Notes under the pieces: model-generated
What the model was told of the DNA's origin: nothing
What the model saw: the letters and a program-made list of their open reading frames with translations, nothing else
Databases searched by the model: none
Shown: in pieces, positions 1 through 23,072 of the stretch
Layout: each line of letters opens with the position of its first letter
How positions within the stretch are numbered: the stretch's first letter is position 1
Source: a virus
Direction: 5' to 3' (one strand)
IMG/VR virus record: IMGVR_UViG_3300042507_000843
Coordinates: 1 to 26,338 of that record
DNA length: 26,338 nucleotides
Program-made: the position numbers and the translations under genes

Positions 1-2059
1 AGAAGGGCGAGCCGATGACGCCACGGGCAAAGTCGCCCTGACGCTGCCGAATCATCTCGACCAAGAACGACTCGGCCGTAGACATGGCCGATTCAATCAT
101 AATCAACTTGGCCTCGGTCATGGGCGGCGCGGCGCCAGGGTTGAACGCCGACACGTCACGGGCGTCGAGCCACGCAGCCACGGCCTCAAACCCGCCGGAC
201 TTATACCATGCCCAGATACGGGCGGCGTCGGCCTCGGGCAGACGCTCGGCCTCCGACCAGACAACGAACCACCGCCGGTCATCGGAGGGCAGACTGATGG
301 CGGCGCGCTCGTTAGAGAAGGACAGTACGAACACGCGGTTAAGTGCGTCATACGGGTGCAAGCCCTTGCGGTTCACGCTCAGAAGTTCAGGCGGCGCGGC
401 GATGACAGGCTTCAGGCTGTTTTCAAGCGCCCGCCGGTCTTTAGCCTCGGCCTGCCGCAGCTCGTTGATGACGATGACCTCGGACTCTAAGGCATAGCCC
501 CACTGCGAGTTAAGTTCCTCGTTCTTGACGATTGCCACGTTGACGTGGGTGTGGCCGCCGATAGACCACAGGAACGGCGCCCAGAGCGTATCCTTACCGC
601 TGCCAGGGCGACCGGCGTGCAAGACGGCATGGTTGATTTTCTGGTTGGCGTGCTGGCGCTTGTAGGCCATGACGTTGAAGACGTGCTCGCGCTCAACCGG
701 GTCGGGGATCATGCGCTCGGCGTGCTCTAACCACACGGCCACGTCGCCGTCGCTAGCCGCCGGTCGCGCGTCGCGCCAACGGTTGCCGTAGACCAGGCCG
801 TTACGCGAGACAAGAATAGACTCGCCGGCGGCGAACGTGACGCCGACGAGCGAGTGAGCGCCCATGGCCTGCCGGTTCTCATCGAAGCAGACAGAGGCTT
901 CGATGTTGCGGTTGGAGCGGATGCTGCGGCAGGGGATGTGGCGGAACAGGGCGTTGAACGTCTGCCGGCTGATTTCGCGGCGATCCACCATGTCAAAGTA
1001 GCTGTCGTCGTCTTGGATATAAGCAAAACGCTCATACCATTGCGCCCGTTCGATGCGCCCCAGTTCGCGGCGCTCGACCTCCTCAATGACCTTGGCGGCC
1101 TCGTTGGGGAACTCCTCGGTGGGGGTGATTCTGGCCAAAGCGGACTCCATCTTTTTTGCGAGCAGGTCATCCCGCAGGCCGTAGCCCGTCTTGGGGCCGC
1201 CTTCGGCTTCAACCCACCGCAGGAACGCCTCGCTGTTCCAGTCGCCACAATGGCCGTGGAAGCAGGTGTAGCTACGCGTAAGGGGATTGTAGCGCCCGCC
1301 GGGATCGCCCGTCGTGTGCTCGGCGTGGTTAGGGCAGACAACGCCATACCAACCTTCGCCGTTGGCCTTGTCAAGCAGCAGCCCGCGCTCGCGCACCCAC
1401 TCCAGAACGGTGTCGAGGCCGTCGTCCTCAAGGTATACGCCGCGTATATACGCCGTGTCTACAGCGCCGGGGGTGACGTTAAACGCTTGACAAATCTGCG
1501 CAAGCGTGTACTCGCGCTCGGGGTAAAACTCGGCCAGGATGGCGGCAAAGTTGTTGCGGCCTTCCTTGAGGTTAACACTACCCTCAATGCGGAAGTTACG
1601 TACGGGGTTGATTGCACCGGGGTCGGTATAACCCGCATCGGCGATGGCCTTGATGGCGGCCGAGAACTCGCCCTTGGTCGGCTGATCGTCCAGGCCGAAC
1701 GTGTAGCCCCACTGGTAGTTGCCGGGGCTCGTCTCTAGCTTCCACGTCGGTTCCAGCGGCGGTACCTTGGACTTGGTGCCGATGTCATCCAGCACCATGA
1801 ACGCCACGCGCTCGCAGTTGGCCGCAGAGGCCGAGAGGCCATCCGCCATGCGGTCAACGATGAAGCAGCCCGTGTTGGCGTACCACGCCCCATCAGGCCG
1901 GCGTTGGTAAGTGTCGAACAGGGCGGGCGGCCAGGTGTATTTCGGCGTCCCGTCGTTATGCGTCAGATGCTCGCCCTTTCGGACGATTGGCTTCTGACGG
2001 ACGAACAAAATGGTTTCCCCTTCGGGGGCGATATTGTTAATATAGTCGGCGAATCTCAT
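1..2059 (-). CDS. DNA primase-helicase, N-terminal 686 residues (runs off left edge)
   Basis: No stop codon occurs in this frame before the left edge, so the gene is partial at its C-terminus. The N-terminal third carries VLDDIGTKSK followed by LETSPGNYQWGY, which resembles RepB-type primase-polymerase domains of phages. Near residues 240-270 a CPNH...CFHGHC cluster forms a likely zinc-binding motif. Near residue 483 GRPGSGKDT is a Walker A P-loop, followed by VIVINEL (Walker B-like) and SFSNERAAI, as in D5/VapE-type superfamily 3 helicases. The product probably primes and unwinds DNA at the phage fork. Two in-frame ATGs exist (2068 and 2059). A GGAG lies directly against the first and nine bases from the second, so 2059 is preferred. 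It follows the polymerase gene by about 50 bases that hold a hairpin. Confidence 0.88.
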   Translation of the reverse strand, partial: MRFADYINNIAPEGETILFVRQKPIVRKGEHLTHNDGTPKYTWPPALFDTYQRRPDGAWYANTGCFIVDRMADGLSASAANCERVAFMVLDDIGTKSKVPPLEPTWKLETSPGNYQWGYTFGLDDQPTKGEFSAAIKAIADAGYTDPGAINPVRNFRIEGSVNLKEGRNNFAAILAEFYPEREYTLAQICQAFNVTPGAVDTAYIRGVYLEDDGLDTVLEWVRERGLLLDKANGEGWYGVVCPNHAEHTTGDPGGRYNPLTRSYTCFHGHCGDWNSEAFLRWVEAEGGPKTGYGLRDDLLAKKMESALARITPTEEFPNEAAKVIEEVERRELGRIERAQWYERFAYIQDDDSYFDMVDRREISRQTFNALFRHIPCRSIRSNRNIEASVCFDENRQAMGAHSLVGVTFAAGESILVSRNGLVYGNRWRDARPAASDGDVAVWLEHAERMIPDPVEREHVFNVMAYKRQHANQKINHAVLHAGRPGSGKDTLWAPFLWSIGGHTHVNVAIVKNEELNSQWGYALESEVIVINELRQAEAKDRRALENSLKPVIAAPPELLSVNRKGLHPYDALNRVFVLSFSNERAAISLPSDDRRWFVVWSEAERLPEADAARIWAWYKSGGFEAVAAWLDARDVSAFNPGAAPPMTEAKLIMIESAMSTAESFLVEMIRQRQGDFARGVIGSPF

Positions 2060-2082
2060 CGTAGACATCTCCAGTCTTCGTT

Positions 2083-2111
2083 AGCCCGGCCTAACCCACC
2101 GGGCTTTTTTT
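2083..2111 (+). terminator. Intrinsic-terminator-like hairpin, facing against the local genes
   Basis: AGCCCGG (2083-2089) pairs with CCGGGCT (2099-2105) around a 9-base loop, and a run of seven T (2105-2111) follows on the plus strand. This is the shape of a rho-independent terminator for rightward transcripts, although the flanking polymerase and primase genes read leftward. The right arm can alternatively pair as GGGCT (2101-2105) with AGCCC (2112-2116). On the minus strand the run is A-rich and lies before the stem, so it should not terminate the gene-sense transcript efficiently. Confidence 0.55.
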
Positions 2112-4107
2112 AGCCCTTACCGTACCGCGCCATGACCTTGACTTCGGCCTTGAGCGGAAACCCCGCAGCCCAGTCAGGCGCCGTACACATAACCGTATTC
2201 AACACCTCGGCGACCGCCTCGGCGGCTTCGTCGGCGCACTCAATGACGATTTCGTCATGGATGTGCAGCACCGTACGCAGCCCCTGACGGTCGAGCTCAC
2301 GCAGGCTATGCCTTAGCAGATCGTTGGCGGTCGCCTGTGTGATGTTCTCGCAAGCCAAACCCTTCCACAGCCGCGCGCGCGGCCATTCGGTCGCATCCTG
2401 CGCAGGCTTCCAGGCGGCTTTGAGGTAACTCACCCCGTCCGACTCCAGACGGGCGAACGGATAACATAGCACGCGGCCTGACGGCAGGGCATACCAAAGA
2501 TGCTGCCCGTCGTACATGTACGCCACGCGGCCCGCTCGTATTTCATGGTTGACATTTCGCATGGCGCGGGTGTAGGCGTCCTCCAGCTTCTGCCAGTAAC
2601 GCACCGCCCAAGGGTTTGCCCGGCGCCATCGGTCAACAATACGCTGCGCCTCGGCCTCGGGCATACTCAGGCCGTAGGCTCGGCCCATGGCGCTGAACGC
2701 TCCGACGCCGCCCGCGAAGCCAAGCGAGAGGATGGCGACCTTGCCGATCTGGCGCTGCTCGTCGTTGACCGCCTCCGGCGCTAGGCCATAGATGCCGCCG
2801 GCCTCGCGCTTGTAGATGTCGCCACCTTGGCGGAAGGCGTCCAACACGTCCTCGGCGAGTCGGTCGGCGGACAGCCACGCGGTCGCACGGGCCTCTATCG
2901 CTGCCCAATCGGCCACGACGAAAATGTTACCTCGGGCGGGGACAAGGGCTGGGCGCAACATTCCTTTAAGAACGTCTGTAACGCGGCGACCGAACTCGGG
3001 CACGATACTGTGACCGCGCACCAGGGCATGTCTAACCGCGTCGGGCTGTTTGACGCACTTACGCGTAAAGTTATGGACTTGCGCGCCGTAGCTTGAAGCA
3101 CGCCCGGTGGCACTTCCACCAGCAAATATAAAGGCTCCACGGACACGAGCGTCCTCCACGTCGGCTAGCTGCTTCAGCCGGTTGAACTTGGCTACCGACG
3201 AGGCCCAAAGGTCATCGGCGCATTGGATTACATCCGCCACGTCGGGCGGCACCTCATCGGCGTTATCCATGGCGAGCAGGTTGGCTCGCACGGTCTTGTC
3301 AATACTAAACTTCTTTTCGCCGTCCTTGTGGACGGTCATCAGGCGCTTGGCCTCGGGCCCGACGCGCTCCAGCACCCACTCGCGCATCTTAGGCGAGCGG
3401 ACGGTCGTTATCGCGCCCTGCGTGACCTCAGCCACGATCCGCTCAATATCCTGCAGCTCGACTTCAGCGTAGCGCACGGCGGCCTCGCAGAGCGGCACGT
3501 CCACCATGACGCCGGCGTCGTTGATGCGCTCGTTGACGTGGTAATCGGCCAGCTCGGTGTCCGACAGGTCGCGCATGGCCTTGCTGATCTCGCGCATAGC
3601 GCGCACGTCCTGCTCGCAGTAGGCGACCATCTCGGCCATCAGCTCAGGGTCGGTGTTGAACGTCCCGTCAGCGCGGGGGATGGACAACTGCCGGATAAGC
3701 TGCGCGCCTCGGTAGTCCTTCTTCATCTTGGACGACAGGGCGCGGCCGATGTCCTCAAGGCTACCAGGCAGGCAGTTGGCCCGCGCCTGAGCGGCCGTGC
3801 AGTAGAACTGCGACAAGGCGAACGGCATGTCAAGGACATACCAGAAGATAAGCCGCTCAAAGGCAGCGTTGTGCGCGCGTATCTGGCCCTTGAAGTTAGC
3901 CACGCGCTCGGGAAACGGGTGCTTCGGCAACCACGTCTCGACCTCGCCATCGTCGAAAGCGTAGGACATGCACAGCACCTCAGTGCTCGCGTCCAAGGCG
4001 TAGTTGTACGCACCCGCCGCCGGTAGGTCGCACCGGCTACGGGTTTCAAAGTCTAGCCAAAGTATTGCCATCGAAGAATCGGGGGCCGTTACCGGCCCCC
4101 GCTCCAT
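2110..4107 (-). CDS. Family A DNA polymerase with 3'-5' exonuclease domain
   Basis: This is a replicative phage PolA-type enzyme of 665 residues. The exonuclease motifs are visible: DFE (D19, E21), HNAAFE (N80, E84) and YCEQD (Y163, D167). Polymerase motif A is ADWAAIEAR (D400, E405, R407), motif B lies around GKVAILSLGFAGG (K456), and motif C is HDE (617-619). No 5'-nuclease domain is present, as is usual for phage enzymes. The ATG at 4107 overlaps the upstream stop as TAATG, suggesting re-initiation. An internal ATG at 4071 starts exactly at the conserved domain (MAILWLDFETRS) and is a real alternative. Neither start has a clear ribosome binding site. Gene order suggests it acts with the SSB-like protein and primase-helicase beside it. 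Confidence 0.95.
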   Translation of the reverse strand: MERGPVTAPDSSMAILWLDFETRSRCDLPAAGAYNYALDASTEVLCMSYAFDDGEVETWLPKHPFPERVANFKGQIRAHNAAFERLIFWYVLDMPFALSQFYCTAAQARANCLPGSLEDIGRALSSKMKKDYRGAQLIRQLSIPRADGTFNTDPELMAEMVAYCEQDVRAMREISKAMRDLSDTELADYHVNERINDAGVMVDVPLCEAAVRYAEVELQDIERIVAEVTQGAITTVRSPKMREWVLERVGPEAKRLMTVHKDGEKKFSIDKTVRANLLAMDNADEVPPDVADVIQCADDLWASSVAKFNRLKQLADVEDARVRGAFIFAGGSATGRASSYGAQVHNFTRKCVKQPDAVRHALVRGHSIVPEFGRRVTDVLKGMLRPALVPARGNIFVVADWAAIEARATAWLSADRLAEDVLDAFRQGGDIYKREAGGIYGLAPEAVNDEQRQIGKVAILSLGFAGGVGAFSAMGRAYGLSMPEAEAQRIVDRWRRANPWAVRYWQKLEDAYTRAMRNVNHEIRAGRVAYMYDGQHLWYALPSGRVLCYPFARLESDGVSYLKAAWKPAQDATEWPRARLWKGLACENITQATANDLLRHSLRELDRQGLRTVLHIHDEIVIECADEAAEAVAEVLNTVMCTAPDWAAGFPLKAEVKVMARYGKG
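4081..4100. repeat. Perfect GC-rich hairpin at the polymerase start
   Basis: GGGGGCCG (4081-4088) and CGGCCCCC (4093-4100) form an 8-base-pair all-GC stem with a TTAC loop. It lies between the two candidate polymerase start codons (4107 and 4071). No T-run follows on either strand, so it is better read as an RNA structure affecting polymerase translation, or an RNA processing signal, than as a terminator. Confidence 0.6.
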
Positions 4108-4751
4108 TACGCAACGCGACGCCGACGAGCCGCAGCAGCCGGCGGAGGCGTGTCATCGCCCTCCGGTGCCGAGGGAGCCTCGCCGTCCATGGACACCCAC
4201 TCGACGATTTCAAAGACCGGCGTGTAGATGCGACCGTAGGACTTGTGCTGGTAGTGTTCCTTCTTCAGAACCACCACCGGCACGGGCTTGCTCTGGTCAC
4301 GCTCGACCTGGGCTGCGATGGCCGCCGCCAAGGTTTGCACGGCACGCTTGCCGCCCACGGATGTAGTGCTGTAGCGAGCCTCAAGGCCCGCGTCCTCGCC
4401 CGTGATGCACTTCAAGCTCATGCCAACCTGAGTCTCCCACCCCTTCTTGCTCTGCGGGGGCGCGGGCTCAAGTTCCGGCAGCGGCTGCGACACCGACACC
4501 ATCTTCTCGCCGAGCACCTCTCCGTCGCCCCACGCGATGAAGCCGTGAACGAACGAGAAGGGATTAACTGCCCACCGGCTGTTTTCCTCGGCCTCGGTTT
4601 GATCCGCGCCGAAGACCCAGTGGCCCGTCTTATCCATCTTGAGGATAGCCGACCCGACCGGGCCGACCTCCACTTCGATGTTACGCAGAGCCGTGGACAG
4701 GGAAGTGACAGCGGGCAGACCCGCCTTGCTGAACGCAGTGATATTCGACAT
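4107..4751 (-). CDS. Putative single-stranded DNA-binding replication protein
   Basis: This 214-residue protein has no catalytic motif I recognise. It is probably beta-rich (residues 20-150), with aromatic residues in strands such as GHWVFGAD, NPFSFVHGFIAW and GRIYTPVFEIVEW. It has a low-complexity C-terminal tail with an acidic segment, then a proline/alanine stretch, ending in a basic RRRRVA. It sits between the Cas4-like nuclease and the polymerase, the place where related phage replication cassettes encode a DUF2815-type single-strand-binding protein. The SSB role is therefore inferred from position and composition. A strong AAGGAG lies 7 bases before the ATG, overlapping the end of the upstream gene. 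The stop overlaps the polymerase start (TAATG). Confidence 0.7.
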   Translation of the reverse strand: MSNITAFSKAGLPAVTSLSTALRNIEVEVGPVGSAILKMDKTGHWVFGADQTEAEENSRWAVNPFSFVHGFIAWGDGEVLGEKMVSVSQPLPELEPAPPQSKKGWETQVGMSLKCITGEDAGLEARYSTTSVGGKRAVQTLAAAIAAQVERDQSKPVPVVVLKKEHYQHKSYGRIYTPVFEIVEWVSMDGEAPSAPEGDDTPPPAAAARRRRVA

Positions 4752-4762
4752 TACTCTACTCC

Positions 4763-5887
4763 TTACACTATTTTAGAAAGGGCCGCAGTCAACTGCTGCC
4801 CGATTTGCAGCACGGCGGGCCGGGGATCGCTCTCCGGCGCCATCGTGTTGCCCGTCGAGACTGAGACAACGAGGTCATCCGGCAGGGGGAGCTTCAGCTT
4901 CTTCAGCTTCTTCTCCGCCTGAGCCGGGCTAACCACAGTCGTCTCAATCACGTCCTCTGAAGGCAGGTGCGCAAGCAACGCCTGCTTGGCGCGCTCGTCA
5001 TCTGCCCACTTGCGCGTTGCGCGCTTCTGCACGAGCTTGAAGCCTGGCACCGGGTTGCCGGACTCCAGCACCTGCATCGCCAGCGCGCGCAGGTCGCTAA
5101 TCCAATCCTCAAGCATCTGCGCCCGCTCAAGCATCTGCCCAAGCTGCGCCGCGTCGAGCTCCTTAATCTGCGTCTGCGCTGCACGGTCAACCGCGCCGGT
5201 CATCAGGGGGCAGATGGGCTTGGCGGCGCACCAACGGCAGTGCTCGCCAATCTTGAGCGCCGCGTCGGGGCGTTCCGCCTGCTTGACCGCATGCACCAAC
5301 TCGCGCTCAAACAGCCGCACGCGGTCAAACGATGTAACCCACCGCTTTACCTGCGGCGGCTGGACGATGATGCACTCAATCTCTTTAACGCCCTTGAATA
5401 CCCAGTCCAGCGCCGGCGTGCGAATCGCCGCAGCCGTATAAAATAGAAGCTGAGGGTTTTCTTCCACTTCGACGGCCACGCCGTCACCGAATTTCCAATC
5501 CAATACAATAGCGCGATTGCCAATCCGACCGATAAGATCACAAGAACCAAACACACCCGGCAAAAGATCACCGAAGCTGACGGTTTGTTCGACTGCGAAC
5601 TCAAGTTGCGCGTTTGGGTCGATTTCATTTATGGCATCCATGGCGGGACGAATCTTCTCGTCGAGCAGATCGTCGGTAAGTTTAATGCCGTTGTACTCCA
5701 TGCCGAGCACGTACCGCAGCTCCTTGTCTTGGCCCAACAACTCGGCCATGACGTTGTGCAGCAGCGTGCCTTCATCGGCGTACTTGCTTGACGGCTTCGG
5801 GGGGACTTTTTGGCAGAGCGCGACGCTGCCAGGGCAGTTAATCACGCGCTTGGCGGTGGACCCGCCGACTATGTTGCTATGGCTCAT
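4763..5887 (-). CDS. DUF2800 family Cas4/RecB-like PD-(D/E)XK nuclease
   Basis: This 374-residue protein matches the DUF2800 pattern. The RecB-type nuclease core is visible: H44 in TLLHNV, GSCD (D117), VLDWK (D130, K132) and QLLFY (Q146, Y150). A cysteine cluster C217-x2-C220-x5-C226, together with C18 or C25 near the N-terminus, resembles the split iron-sulphur site of Cas4/AddB nucleases. That cluster assignment is inference. The gene opens the leftward replication operon. AAAGGAG lies 8 bases before the ATG and a good promoter lies upstream (5917-5945). In comparable phage cassettes this family accompanies an SSB-like protein and PolA, and a role in processing replication or recombination ends is likely. 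Confidence 0.87.
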   Translation of the reverse strand: MSHSNIVGGSTAKRVINCPGSVALCQKVPPKPSSKYADEGTLLHNVMAELLGQDKELRYVLGMEYNGIKLTDDLLDEKIRPAMDAINEIDPNAQLEFAVEQTVSFGDLLPGVFGSCDLIGRIGNRAIVLDWKFGDGVAVEVEENPQLLFYTAAAIRTPALDWVFKGVKEIECIIVQPPQVKRWVTSFDRVRLFERELVHAVKQAERPDAALKIGEHCRWCAAKPICPLMTGAVDRAAQTQIKELDAAQLGQMLERAQMLEDWISDLRALAMQVLESGNPVPGFKLVQKRATRKWADDERAKQALLAHLPSEDVIETTVVSPAQAEKKLKKLKLPLPDDLVVSVSTGNTMAPESDPRPAVLQIGQQLTAALSKIV

Positions 5888-5916
5888 TGAGGACTCTCCT
5901 TTAGTGTGTTTGCGCT

Positions 5917-5945
5917 AGCCTAAAGCCGCCGAATCGGCTTGTCAA
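5917..5945 (-). promoter_or_regulatory. Sigma70-type promoter for the leftward replication operon
   Basis: On the minus strand TTGACA (5945-5940, exact consensus) and TAGGCT (5922-5917, 3 of 6) are separated by 17 bases. The predicted start of transcription leaves a short leader carrying AAAGGAG before the ATG at 5887. The spacer contains a palindrome. The host sigma factor is unknown, so the call rests on E. coli-type consensus. Confidence 0.6.
5923..5940. promoter_or_regulatory. Palindromic operator candidate between divergent promoters
   Basis: AAGCCG (5923-5928) and CGGCTT (5935-5940) form an inverted repeat with a 6-base centre. An 11-base palindrome, GCCGA-A-TCGGC (5928-5938), overlaps it. 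The element fills the spacer of the leftward promoter and touches the -35 box of the rightward one. A bound repressor would block both. No cognate regulator is identified. Confidence 0.45.
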
Positions 5946-5967
5946 GCATTGTTTTATCCCGTAAGAT
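5939..5967 (+). promoter_or_regulatory. Sigma70-type promoter for the rightward nuclease-helicase operon
   Basis: TTGTCA (5939-5944, 5 of 6) and TAAGAT (5962-5967, 4 of 6) are spaced by 17 bases. The hexamer overlaps the -35 box of the leftward promoter on the opposite strand. A transcript starting about 7 bases after the -10 box would begin essentially at the ATG at 5975, implying a leaderless mRNA. Confidence 0.45.
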
Positions 5968-5974
5968 TTCGCTC

Positions 5975-6262
5975 ATGCGAGAAAAGACCATTGAGGAATA
6001 CTTGACTTGGGCGGTCGAACGTGTTGGCGGCGTGACGTTCAAGTTCCGCTCGCCCTCCCAGCGAGGCGTGGCCGACCGGATCGTGTGCCTGCCTAACGGC
6101 ACGACTTGGTTCGTGGAGCTAAAAACGGAGAACGGCCGGCTCTCGCCGCTGCAAAAGGTGTTTGCGTCCGTGATGGCGCAGACAAATCAGAAGTACAAGG
6201 TGCTGTACCGCACAGAGGAAGTCGATGCTTTCGTTGCGTCCGTATCAAGAGAGCGCGGCTGA
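5975..6262 (+). CDS. VRR-NUC domain nuclease
   Basis: This 95-residue stand-alone VRR-NUC protein belongs to the PD-(D/E)XK superfamily. Visible features are an N-terminal helix with EE (7-8), GVADRIV (D34), FVELK (E48, K50) and a following Q60, the usual catalytic arrangement. Members cut branched DNA such as Holliday junctions or flaps. The ATG at 5975 gives normal family length. A TTG at 5939 would add 12 residues but lies inside the predicted promoter. There is no good Shine-Dalgarno, only a weak TAAGA, consistent with a leaderless transcript. It overlaps the helicase start by 38 bases, so the two are probably translated together. Confidence 0.87.
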   Translation: MREKTIEEYLTWAVERVGGVTFKFRSPSQRGVADRIVCLPNGTTWFVELKTENGRLSPLQKVFASVMAQTNQKYKVLYRTEEVDAFVASVSRERG

Positions 6263-7562
6263 TTTCCTATACGAGCACGACCGTGCCATGGTGCTGGCGC
6301 CCGTAGGCGCCGGCAAGACGGCGCTTACCCTGACGGCCATGCGCGATGCCTTGGGCGCTGGCGTAGTCAAGCGTTGGCTTGTCGTGGCACCCCTGCGCGT
6401 GGCGCAGCACGTCTGGCCGGTTGAGGCGGCTAAGTGGGCACCGGGGCTCACGCTCGCGGTGGCTCTCGGCGCGCCCGCTTGGCGAACGAAGGCGCTAGAA
6501 TCCGACGCCCGCGTGGTGGTCACTAACTATGACAACCTGCAGTGGTTAGCCAAGCAGAAGCTTGACTTTGACGGCGTGGTGTTCGACGAGCTGACTAGGC
6601 TGAAGAACCCCTCGGGAGCGCGGTTTAAAGCCATCCTGAAGGCGCTGGAGCCGATTAAAGTACGGTGGGGGCTAACTGGTAGCTTCACCTCAAACGGCCT
6701 AGAGGACGTGTTTGGGCAATGCAAAATCATCGACCAAAGCCTGTTAGGCCGCAGCAAAGGCGCCTTCCTGCAACAGTATTTTATCTGCCTCAACCGGGAG
6801 TTTGGCGAATGGACGCCCGCGCCTGGCGCGTTAGGGCAGGTTATGGCGCGGATCAAGCCCGCGACTTTTGTGCTAGAGCCTGGCGAGTACAGCGACAAGC
6901 TGCCGCCGCTCCACACGGTACAGATGCGCTGCGAGCTACTTGACCGCGAGCCTTACGAAAAGATGCGGCGGGACTTTATGGTGGAGTTCCCCAACGTCAC
7001 GGCTATCGCCGCCAACGCCGCCGCCGTCACGTCCAAGCTGCAGCAGATGGCCTCGGGGTTCGTCTACGAGACAACGCGTACGGCCTCGGATCGACCGGGC
7101 AAATTCGACGTGCAGCAAAAGACGGTGTGGTTTTCTGACCACAAGCTAGAGATGCTAGATGACCTGCTGGAAGAAAACCAACACGCTAATACGATAATTG
7201 TTTACAATTATCAGGCCGAGCTTGCTGAGTTGCGGCGGCGATACCCGACGGCGGCGACAATCGACCAGCCGGGGGTAATTGACGCATGGAACCGGGGCGA
7301 TATTGAGCTGTTGCTGATACACCCCAAGTCCGCCGGGCACGGGTTGAACCTGCAGCACGGCGGGTGCCGGATGGTGTTTATGTCGCTGCCTTGGTCGTTG
7401 GAAGAATACGAGCAGGTCGTCGGCCGGCTGCATCGCAGCGGCCAGCGGCACGACGTATGGGTGTACGTGCTGCAGACTGAGAAGACGATTGACGAGAAGA
7501 TTTGGTCGGCATTGCGCGACAAACGCGCCATGTCGGATGTTGCAATGTGGGAGTTAAAATGA
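6225..7562 (+). CDS. SNF2-family DEAD/DEAH-like helicase
   Basis: This 445-residue superfamily 2 ATPase has motif I APVGAGKT (K31), motif II FDELTRLKNP (D121, E122), motif III-like LTGSFTSN (150-157), motif V SAGHGLNLQ (369-377) and motif VI QVVGRLHRSGQ (397-407). These are typical of compact phage SNF2-like enzymes without accessory domains. It probably remodels or unwinds DNA during replication or recombination together with the VRR-NUC nuclease encoded just upstream. An AGAGGAAG lies a few bases before the ATG, inside the nuclease gene. The stop overlaps the next start as ATGA. Confidence 0.93.
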   Translation: MLSLRPYQESAADFLYEHDRAMVLAPVGAGKTALTLTAMRDALGAGVVKRWLVVAPLRVAQHVWPVEAAKWAPGLTLAVALGAPAWRTKALESDARVVVTNYDNLQWLAKQKLDFDGVVFDELTRLKNPSGARFKAILKALEPIKVRWGLTGSFTSNGLEDVFGQCKIIDQSLLGRSKGAFLQQYFICLNREFGEWTPAPGALGQVMARIKPATFVLEPGEYSDKLPPLHTVQMRCELLDREPYEKMRRDFMVEFPNVTAIAANAAAVTSKLQQMASGFVYETTRTASDRPGKFDVQQKTVWFSDHKLEMLDDLLEENQHANTIIVYNYQAELAELRRRYPTAATIDQPGVIDAWNRGDIELLLIHPKSAGHGLNLQHGGCRMVFMSLPWSLEEYEQVVGRLHRSGQRHDVWVYVLQTEKTIDEKIWSALRDKRAMSDVAMWELK

Positions 7563-7756
7563 ACTGGCGAGAGTTGAACGCAAAATTGAACGCAATGAGC
7601 GAAGCCGAAGTAAAGCAGTTGCTTGACGAGGAACTGACCGGCGCCAAGCGGATCACGTTCGTGGAGCGGCTGCACCAGCGGCACTGCGCCCTGCGCGCCG
7701 TCCGTGAGCGCGCAGAGCTGATGGCCTCACTTACTGCGGGATCGCAGGTAGCGTAA
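7559..7756 (+). CDS. Small hypothetical protein, last gene of rightward operon
   Basis: This 65-residue charged, helical protein begins MNWRELNAKLNAMSEAEVK. An ATGA overlap with the helicase stop fixes the start at 7559 rather than at the upstream in-frame ATG at 7502. Its last 30 bases overlap the end of the convergent metallophosphoesterase gene. I recognise no family. The position suggests an accessory to the helicase, which is inference only. Confidence 0.7.
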   Translation: MNWRELNAKLNAMSEAEVKQLLDEELTGAKRITFVERLHQRHCALRAVRERAELMASLTAGSQVA

Positions 7757-8797
7757 GTAGTCCGCCCCTTCCTCGGGCTCCCACCAGACCTTCACCAAGT
7801 CTGGGTGCGACCCTGGCAGTGCAGGGTTGATTGTCGTCACGCAGCAGGGCGACAGCGCGTTGTCGCGGAAGCCCCGGTCTTTCGCGTAGCGGTCGTAGAC
7901 CTTGTAGCTGGCGACCTTGACGGCGTGCATAGTTATGCCGTGGATTGCATCTTTAAGCACGCTATACGCCGACTCATGCTTGTGTCCGGCGATGTACACG
8001 TGGTCGCGGGTACCCATAATCGCGGCCTTCATCGGCCCATGGGCCGGGTTCCAGATGGACGAGCCGCTGTGGTCGTGCCGCGCGTTGACGCGCACTTCGG
8101 CGCCGTTCGGGAACCGCAGCGCGATACGGGCCTCGCTAGCCTTGTAGAGCGCGTTCTGCTGCCGGGCAATCCACTTGAGCGGGTCGCCCGAGCCTGACCA
8201 CAGGTCATGGTTGCCGCCGATCATATAGAGCCAGTTGCAGCGGTTGACGAACCACTCAGCAAGCCGCCAAGCCTGCGCCGCTGACGTAGTTTGGTCGGCA
8301 TAGAGCCGCGCCAGGCGGCCGCACCAGTTATTCGTCGTGTCGCCGACGTTGGCCGCGAATAGACCTTTAGTCTTGTTGACCAGCGCCGTGTGGCGCTCAA
8401 TGGCCTCAATGTCGCAGCCGTCGTCGTCAACGTGCGGATCGCCGAAGTGCAGGATGCCGATAGGGCCGTCGAGCTTGACGCGCACCGGAATCAGCTTGGA
8501 AGCTTCTTCGTGCTCGCGTTTGTGGGTGAACTTGCGCTTGCGCTGCGCAATCAGTTCTTCGATAGAAACGTCGTCATCCGGCAGCGGGGTGAACTCAAAG
8601 TCCTTGGGCAATTCTTCCGGCGGGTGCCCGCTGTATGTTGATTGCGGGATGTCTATGTTTTGCGCTTTAAGCGCATCCAGCCTAAAGTGCAGCGTTCGGA
8701 CGTTGATTTTAAGCGCCCGTGCGGCTACAGCTCGGATGCCGTTGGCTTTGTTTAACGCTTCTAGTATCTGAGCATCCGTAATCTTTTTATCTGGCAC
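7727..8797 (-). CDS. Metallophosphoesterase with N-terminal helix-turn-helix
   Basis: This 356-residue protein has two parts. Residues 5-45 (ILEALNKANGIRAVAARALK onward) look like a Fis-type helix-turn-helix. From residue 113 a calcineurin-like fold follows with FGDPHVD (D120, H122), VGD (D153), GGNHD (196-198), a further HDH and AGHKH, which supplies the metal-binding set. Such proteins are phosphodiesterases or nucleases; the substrate is not evident. The start is a GTG at 8797 with GGAG and GGGG upstream at the end of the previous gene. It is the last gene of the leftward late operon and overlaps the convergent rightward operon by 30 bases. A DNA-directed nuclease is plausible from the DNA-binding-like N-terminus. 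Confidence 0.88.
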   Translation of the reverse strand: MPDKKITDAQILEALNKANGIRAVAARALKINVRTLHFRLDALKAQNIDIPQSTYSGHPPEELPKDFEFTPLPDDDVSIEELIAQRKRKFTHKREHEEASKLIPVRVKLDGPIGILHFGDPHVDDDGCDIEAIERHTALVNKTKGLFAANVGDTTNNWCGRLARLYADQTTSAAQAWRLAEWFVNRCNWLYMIGGNHDLWSGSGDPLKWIARQQNALYKASEARIALRFPNGAEVRVNARHDHSGSSIWNPAHGPMKAAIMGTRDHVYIAGHKHESAYSVLKDAIHGITMHAVKVASYKVYDRYAKDRGFRDNALSPCCVTTINPALPGSHPDLVKVWWEPEEGADYLRYLRSRSK

Positions 8798-22250: not shown

Positions 22251-23027
22251 TTAGCGGTTACGTCGGGCTTCCCACTGTTTAATCTGTCGCAGACGCTCGG
22301 CTTCAATCCACTCTGACGTGCTCATGTCCTTGACGGAGCGGGGGTCAGTCGTGTCTCGGGCCGGTGCGCCGACGGTTTTAGCCGTCACAGGCTTAATCGG
22401 CGGGGGCGCATTAGTTGTCTTTTTGACCGGCGGATTGTCGGTCAACTTGACCTCAATCTTACCAATCTCCTTGGCTTGCAGGTATGGCGACAAACGGGAA
22501 ATACGTTCAGCCTCGCGGGGGTTGGAGCCCAAGTAGTACGCTACGTCGGGGCCAACATCCGAAGCCTGAATCGTCTCGGCCATCACGTTCGTGATTGGCA
22601 ACGCCCTGTTGTACACGACTTGCTCAAAGTCGTCGTACTTGTCAAAGGCCGCTTCCTCACGTTCCTTATAGGCCGTCAACAGCTCGCGCTGCTGCCGATC
22701 CGCCTCACGCTGGGCCAGCAATTCCTCCGCCTTACGGGCCGCAAGGGCTTCCGTATAAGCGTCGGGGTCGATGTCCCGGTCAGGCAGCGCGGCAGGCGTC
22801 TGGGCCATCGGCTCAGGCACTTTCAACGCTTGCTCTCGTTCCCACTTGCGACGTTCCCGTGCAAGTCGTTTACCTACCAGCGCGTCGAGCTCCTCTTGGG
22901 AGAACGTCTTGGCAGGCTTTTCCTCCGGCGGGGTTGCCTCTTGAGCAACAACTTCGGGTTCCGGTGCTGCCGTAGCTTCCGGTTCCGGCGCGGGTACTTG
23001 TTCCGCTACAACTTCGTTTTCAGACAT
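22251..23027 (-). CDS. Capsid scaffold protein
   Basis: AAGGA about six bases upstream supports the ATG at 23027 (MSENEVVAEQ) rather than one 33 bases earlier, giving 258 residues. The N-terminus is acidic and proline-rich. A long charged coiled coil (LVGKRLARERRKWEREQALK, AARKAEELLAQREADRQQRE) follows, and the end is basic and helical (RLRQIKQWEARRNR). The same plan occurs in P22 scaffold, where the basic C-terminus binds coat. The role is inferred from composition and from its place immediately before the coat gene. Confidence 0.85.
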   Translation of the reverse strand: MSENEVVAEQVPAPEPEATAAPEPEVVAQEATPPEEKPAKTFSQEELDALVGKRLARERRKWEREQALKVPEPMAQTPAALPDRDIDPDAYTEALAARKAEELLAQREADRQQRELLTAYKEREEAAFDKYDDFEQVVYNRALPITNVMAETIQASDVGPDVAYYLGSNPREAERISRLSPYLQAKEIGKIEVKLTDNPPVKKTTNAPPPIKPVTAKTVGAPARDTTDPRSVKDMSTSEWIEAERLRQIKQWEARRNR

Positions 23028-23072
23028 TTTGATTCCTTCAGAATCCCTGGTGAACCGCACCAGTACGGATAA

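Follow-up and report, generated by a model that had tools for sequence, protein, structure and literature searches.

How might a phage transcribe two divergent sets of replication and recombination genes out of an intergenic gap of only 87 bases? The locus that raises this question lies in a 26,338-base fragment of a freshwater phage from IMG/VR, a partial genome that is taken here in its whole length as the window. The phage encodes a P22-type coat protein and has relatives of up to 36-39 kb. Based on comparison with these relatives, the gap is best understood as two constitutive early promoters of the sigma70 type set back to back on one -35 element, mutually exclusive in their binding of polymerase, the one giving a leadered and the other a leaderless message. 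We regard this reading as quite probable. The genes and the gap between them are as follows.

2..2068, minus strand: primase/VapE-like gene, continuing past the window edge
2110..4107, minus strand: family A DNA polymerase gene
4107..4751, minus strand: gene of a phrog_9528 protein, occupying the place of an ssDNA-binding/annealing protein when set against bbp40 of BPP-1
4763..5887, minus strand: DUF2800 / PD-(D/E)XK exonuclease gene
5888..5974, no strand: gap of 87 bases separating the exonuclease gene from the divergent VRR-NUC-type gene, with both promoters inside
5975..6262, plus strand: VRR-NUC-type nuclease gene without a Shine-Dalgarno sequence (phrog_93; Pfam VRR_NUC just below cut-off)
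6225..7562, plus strand: SNF2-type helicase gene, starting within the 3' end of the nuclease gene and having its own Shine-Dalgarno sequence

This gene set is like the replication module of Bordetella phage BPP-1, which comprises an exonuclease, an ssDNA-binding/annealing protein, a DNA polymerase, a small endonuclease and a helicase. Unlike the window, where the module is split by divergent promoters, the BPP-1 module is unidirectional and is accompanied by a cI-type repressor and an integrase. Elsewhere in the window, positions 7727-8797 encode a DNA repair exonuclease-like protein whose N-terminal match to the Fis-type HTH_8 family falls just under the Pfam cut-off. The DNA polymerase III beta clamp has a phage homologue at L176:12213-12902 and L172:16035-16721, the latter being labelled RusA-like in PHROGs. 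Matches among genomes are mainly proteobacterial MAG contigs, including two contigs of one Rhodoferax MAG; they point, weakly because phage contigs can be misbinned, to a host that is probably betaproteobacterial. One of the matches, a betaproteobacterial MAG chromosome (L170, CP070643.1), carries the divergent nuclease gene together with a truncated exonuclease, likely a prophage remnant.

Within the gap and at its edges, the following elements are distinguished.

5894..5899, minus strand: exonuclease Shine-Dalgarno sequence GGAGAG, duplex energy -8.7
5910, minus strand: predicted leftward transcription start, placed from the -10 spacing, giving a leader of about 22 bases
5917..5922, minus strand: leftward -10 TAGGCT
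5939..5945, no strand: -35 heptamer TTGTCAA, common to both promoters
5939..5944, plus strand: rightward -35 TTGTCA
5940..5945, minus strand: leftward -35 TTGACA, perfect consensus
5946..5957, minus strand: A-tract ATAAAACAATGC, UP-element-like, adjoining the leftward -35 and lying inside the rightward spacer
5962..5967, plus strand: rightward -10 TAAGAT, its 3' end 7 bases ahead of the ATG at 5975
5974..5975, plus strand: predicted rightward transcription start, placed from the -10 spacing at the A of the start codon or one base earlier

Direct reading of the sequence bears out what the earlier note had described here, namely the overlap of leftward TTGACA and rightward TTGTCA on the seven bases 5939-5945 and the 17-base spacers of both promoters. 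With -35 and -10 hexamers set apart by a spacer in the range of 16-18 bases, both promoters are of the sigma70 type, the leftward -10 of the window agreeing with the consensus at only 3/6 positions. Given the known footprints of RNA polymerase, simultaneous binding at both promoters is sterically unlikely. Promoter-like sites as such occur in the window at background (3 in 13.2 kb vs 3.5 expected), and TTGACA-16/18-TAnnnT appears somewhere in the window in 23/100 shuffles. When the 87-base gap was shuffled 20,000 times with its dinucleotides preserved, sites on both strands with at least 9/12 matches each were obtained in 7, and an overlapping divergent pair of the same quality in 1. The sharing of the -35 is in part automatic, because TTGACA reversed reads TGTCAA and one extra T creates the other hexamer at 5/6 matches.

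Two scans of viral contigs for loci with both divergent genes gave a set of relatives with 103 distinct gaps, 92 of them having distinct 60-base upstream stretches. Comparison of the gaps reveals conservation of both hexamer pairs, which supports the divergent promoters of the earlier note, here assigned to the exonuclease/SSB-like/polymerase/primase genes on one side and the nuclease/helicase genes on the other. Close relatives (exonuclease 67-91% identical) for the most part retain TTGACA-17-TAnnnT leftward and TTGTCA-17-TAnnnT rightward. In 23 regions that have the shared heptamer and are below 80% similarity, spacer 17 is the sharp maximum for TAnnnT in both directions (rightward 11/21, leftward 13/23), with any other spacer contributing at most 5; for the leftward -10, it is the T, the A and the final T that tend to persist at this spacing in relatives. 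Conservation of the heptamer itself among 16 TTGTCAA regions is not evidence, because the heptamer was the criterion of their selection. Outside it, conservation is highest in the -10 boxes, chiefly at T, A and the final T of the rightward box and at A and T of the leftward one, and in a T-tract of the rightward spacer. Read leftward, this T-tract is the A-tract adjoining the leftward -35, in the manner of a proximal UP element. AAAA is found no more than 14 bases from the leftward -35 in 73/84 relatives, although several of those nearest to the window have a less pronounced tract.

The best-conserved feature of the gap, however, is one that the earlier note had missed: the leaderless register of the nuclease gene. 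Since 7 bases separate the rightward -10 from the ATG, the nuclease RNA would be expected to begin at the A or one base before it, and from this register and the missing Shine-Dalgarno sequence, both computed from sequence, the nuclease mRNA is predicted to be leaderless. When the nuclease upstream sequences are grouped into 45 clusters (<80% identity over 60 bases), 36 of them have a TAnnnT whose end is 6-7 bases ahead of the ATG, compared with a mean of 3.6 and a maximum of 9 in shuffles; the exonuclease start, used as control, has it in this register in 0/41. Shine-Dalgarno duplex energies have a cluster median of +0.6 at the nuclease start, as against -6.45 at the exonuclease start. The nuclease of the window has -1.4, and values of -5 or below are reached in 5/45 clusters. 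Leaderless genes are by accepted practice recognised from a TA-like signal close to the start in combination with a missing Shine-Dalgarno sequence (PMC3160421), and lambda cI provides the classic leaderless mRNA (PMC9031893). With its TA-type -10 about 10 bases upstream of the start codon and its lack of a Shine-Dalgarno sequence, the nuclease gene resembles the TA-led genes and lambda cI. Distinct from cI, which encodes a repressor, it encodes a replication/recombination-type nuclease, conserved across changing promoter layouts. Its start codon is probably right, because the proteins of relatives align mostly from residue 1. Two exceptions to the register, L106 and L118, also speak for the leaderless reading: with the -10 placed further upstream, both have a leader that includes a Shine-Dalgarno-like sequence.

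That the layouts change is evident from their mapping on a tree built from 90 exonuclease sequences. Of these relatives, 47/90 combine a -35 common to both promoters (TTGTCAA or TTGTGCAA) with a rightward -10 at the proper distance, 36/90 have an interleaved arrangement, and the remaining 7/90 fit neither main layout clearly. In the interleaved promoters, TGTGC or TGTGT is followed by TAAACT or TATACT at a distance of 7 bases from the ATG, and these rightward elements face the leftward -10 across an A+T-rich spacer. On the exonuclease tree, a minimum of 8 transitions from one of these layouts to the other is needed, a count that recombination within the gap could inflate. The leaderless register is retained in 83/90 relatives, with 7/90 lacking it, if the count also admits a distance of 8 bases from the -10 to the ATG and a single GAGGAT variant. 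In four relatives (L061, L056, L060, L048) the -35 boxes are separate, yet the nuclease -10 ends 6 bases before the ATG. The feature kept in the lineage is the register, rather than the sharing of the -35.

To put these elements into a working order, the leftward TTGACA-17-TAGGCT with its A-tract would direct synthesis of a leadered mRNA whose strong Shine-Dalgarno sequence opens the series of exonuclease, SSB-like protein, polymerase and primase. The rightward TTGTCA-17-TAAGAT would yield an RNA that starts with the A of the nuclease ATG, or one base before, and is translated without a leader, the helicase downstream being served by its own Shine-Dalgarno sequence. Both promoters would most likely be constitutive, early and read by the sigma70 polymerase of the host, and the leadered one is probably the stronger. 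We infer that polymerase occupies one promoter at a time, an exclusion that need not amount to a switch. The leaderless start probably holds nuclease synthesis low compared to that of the helicase. More speculatively, obligatory leaderless translation of the nuclease could itself be a control device: initiation of the 70S type, sensitive to initiation factors or ribosome pools changed by the infection, would time or limit the nuclease, and selection would have kept the -10/ATG register through the rebuilding of the promoters. We offer this only tentatively.

Among the alternatives, self-regulation by polymerase competition alone is compatible with the reading of two constitutive promoters. Strong leftward initiation would exclude the rightward one and thereby set a fixed or time-varying ratio. 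The common -35 implies overlapping footprints, and in E. coli, measured bidirectional promoters do compete, albeit only under strong activation of one direction and not at basal activity (PMC12825309). Considering also that 36/90 relatives use the other layout and that L061 has its -35 boxes apart, we think of competition as a possibility, on balance an unlikely one. The bidirectional promoters of E. coli and Salmonella plasmids are the nearest comparison, in that they, too, form a compact divergent sigma70 site, at which polymerase binds in a single orientation at a time, as predicted for the window. Their -10 elements overlap and their starts are commonly 10, 18 or 23 bases apart (PMC12825309, PMC10268837), whereas the window shares the -35 and has predicted starts about 65 bases apart. 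Membership in the class of overlapping -10 bidirectional promoters was considered and rejected on this geometry.

A regulated switch, in which a dimeric phage or host protein on the palindrome picks which of the exclusive promoters fires, is less probable. The earlier note had proposed a compact switch between the two operons, and the palindrome it described is present in the leftward spacer (AAGCCG-ccgaat-CGGCTT, 5923..5940), with perfect arms of six bases. Statistically it is weak, arms of at least 6 being found in 0.9% of the window 18-mers and 3.9% of shuffles, and among relatives its place and its sequence vary, or it is missing altogether: most of 26 TTGTCAA gaps are without a perfect arm of 4 or more, and the others vary in sequence and centre. 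As an operator the palindrome was rejected, the window having 27 copies with up to 2 mismatches vs 16 +/- 4.6 in shuffles, and the gaps of relatives lacking a conserved version. The A+T-rich relatives offer the switch a second candidate, an inverted repeat TAGCACA-N-TGTGC that spans the promoters and in part overlaps extended -10 motifs. It, too, is unsupported as an operator: two genomes were checked and had a single copy each, and re-pairing among relatives gave no covariation of the arms. The flanking genes bear out the earlier note in that no regulator adjoins the site. When the early region of relatives was scanned with Pfam/PHROG for an adjacent or common regulator, a single HTH protein came up, a small one whose gene belongs to a different operon in one relative and is present in part of a second (2/8 relatives searched). 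Precedent comes from pLS20, whose overlapping divergent promoters Pc and Pr are governed by the regulator Rco with DNA looping and switch when the regulator affects each of them differently (PMC4207663). In having the -10/-35 of one promoter coincide with the -35/-10 of the other, Pc/Pr resembles the interleaved relatives; unlike in pLS20, no regulator was found here, in what is a partial genome, and the window shares the -35 only. Because the palindrome is unconserved and no shared operator was found, and with 36/90 relatives using the other layout, the switch of the earlier note is possible but unsupported.

The two remaining alternatives are weaker. The nuclease mRNA could be leadered after all, coming from an unseen upstream promoter and leaving TAnnnT before the ATG as some other signal. 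L106 and L118 do have leaders of this kind, the Shine-Dalgarno-like sequences being AGGAG and AAGGAC, but the divergent exonuclease gene occupies the region upstream of the gap, the -10 register stays fixed while layouts change, and the Shine-Dalgarno sequence is missing in most clusters, so that we consider such a leader very unlikely. Least likely of all is that a single promoter is real and the other a by-product of TTGTCAA holding both hexamers, an idea encouraged by the single T that converts TGTCAA into TTGTCA at 5/6 matches and by the background frequency of each site alone, but countered by both -10 boxes being properly spaced in dissimilar relatives and by such a pair arising in just the one of the 20,000 gap shuffles.

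Our literature search found no divergent promoters with a shared -35, and no title or abstract on leaderless phage genes or on this gene set that describes the promoters presented here. Leaderless genes and overlapping divergent promoters are both already known; the lineage-wide conservation of a leaderless nuclease, as predicted here, would be new. If the starts map as predicted, the locus stands for a widespread natural arrangement in which a leaderless and a leadered phage gene face each other across one -35. The dozens of relatives with alternative layouts constitute ready variants for testing the competition of divergent promoters, and they also allow testing whether leaderless translation is selected during infection.

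Other promoter-like sites of these phages deserve brief mention. Upstream of the scaffold/coat genes, the window has TTGACT-16-TACGAT on the minus strand (23100-23072) with ACGCAACAG in the spacer. The site is conserved, recurring at G001 26533 and G003 551, and is possibly a late promoter. The scaffold gene at 22251-23060 was rejected as a second leaderless gene: the GTG start of its longest ORF is probably a choice of the ORF caller and is doubtful because an ATG about 30 bases inside, following a Shine-Dalgarno-like sequence, is likelier. Another early promoter, TTGACA-17-TAATCT or CATGCT, lies ahead of small genes on the minus strand at L172:16883, L174:3341 and L178:833, and its spacer consists of an alternating CG run (CGCGCGCG).
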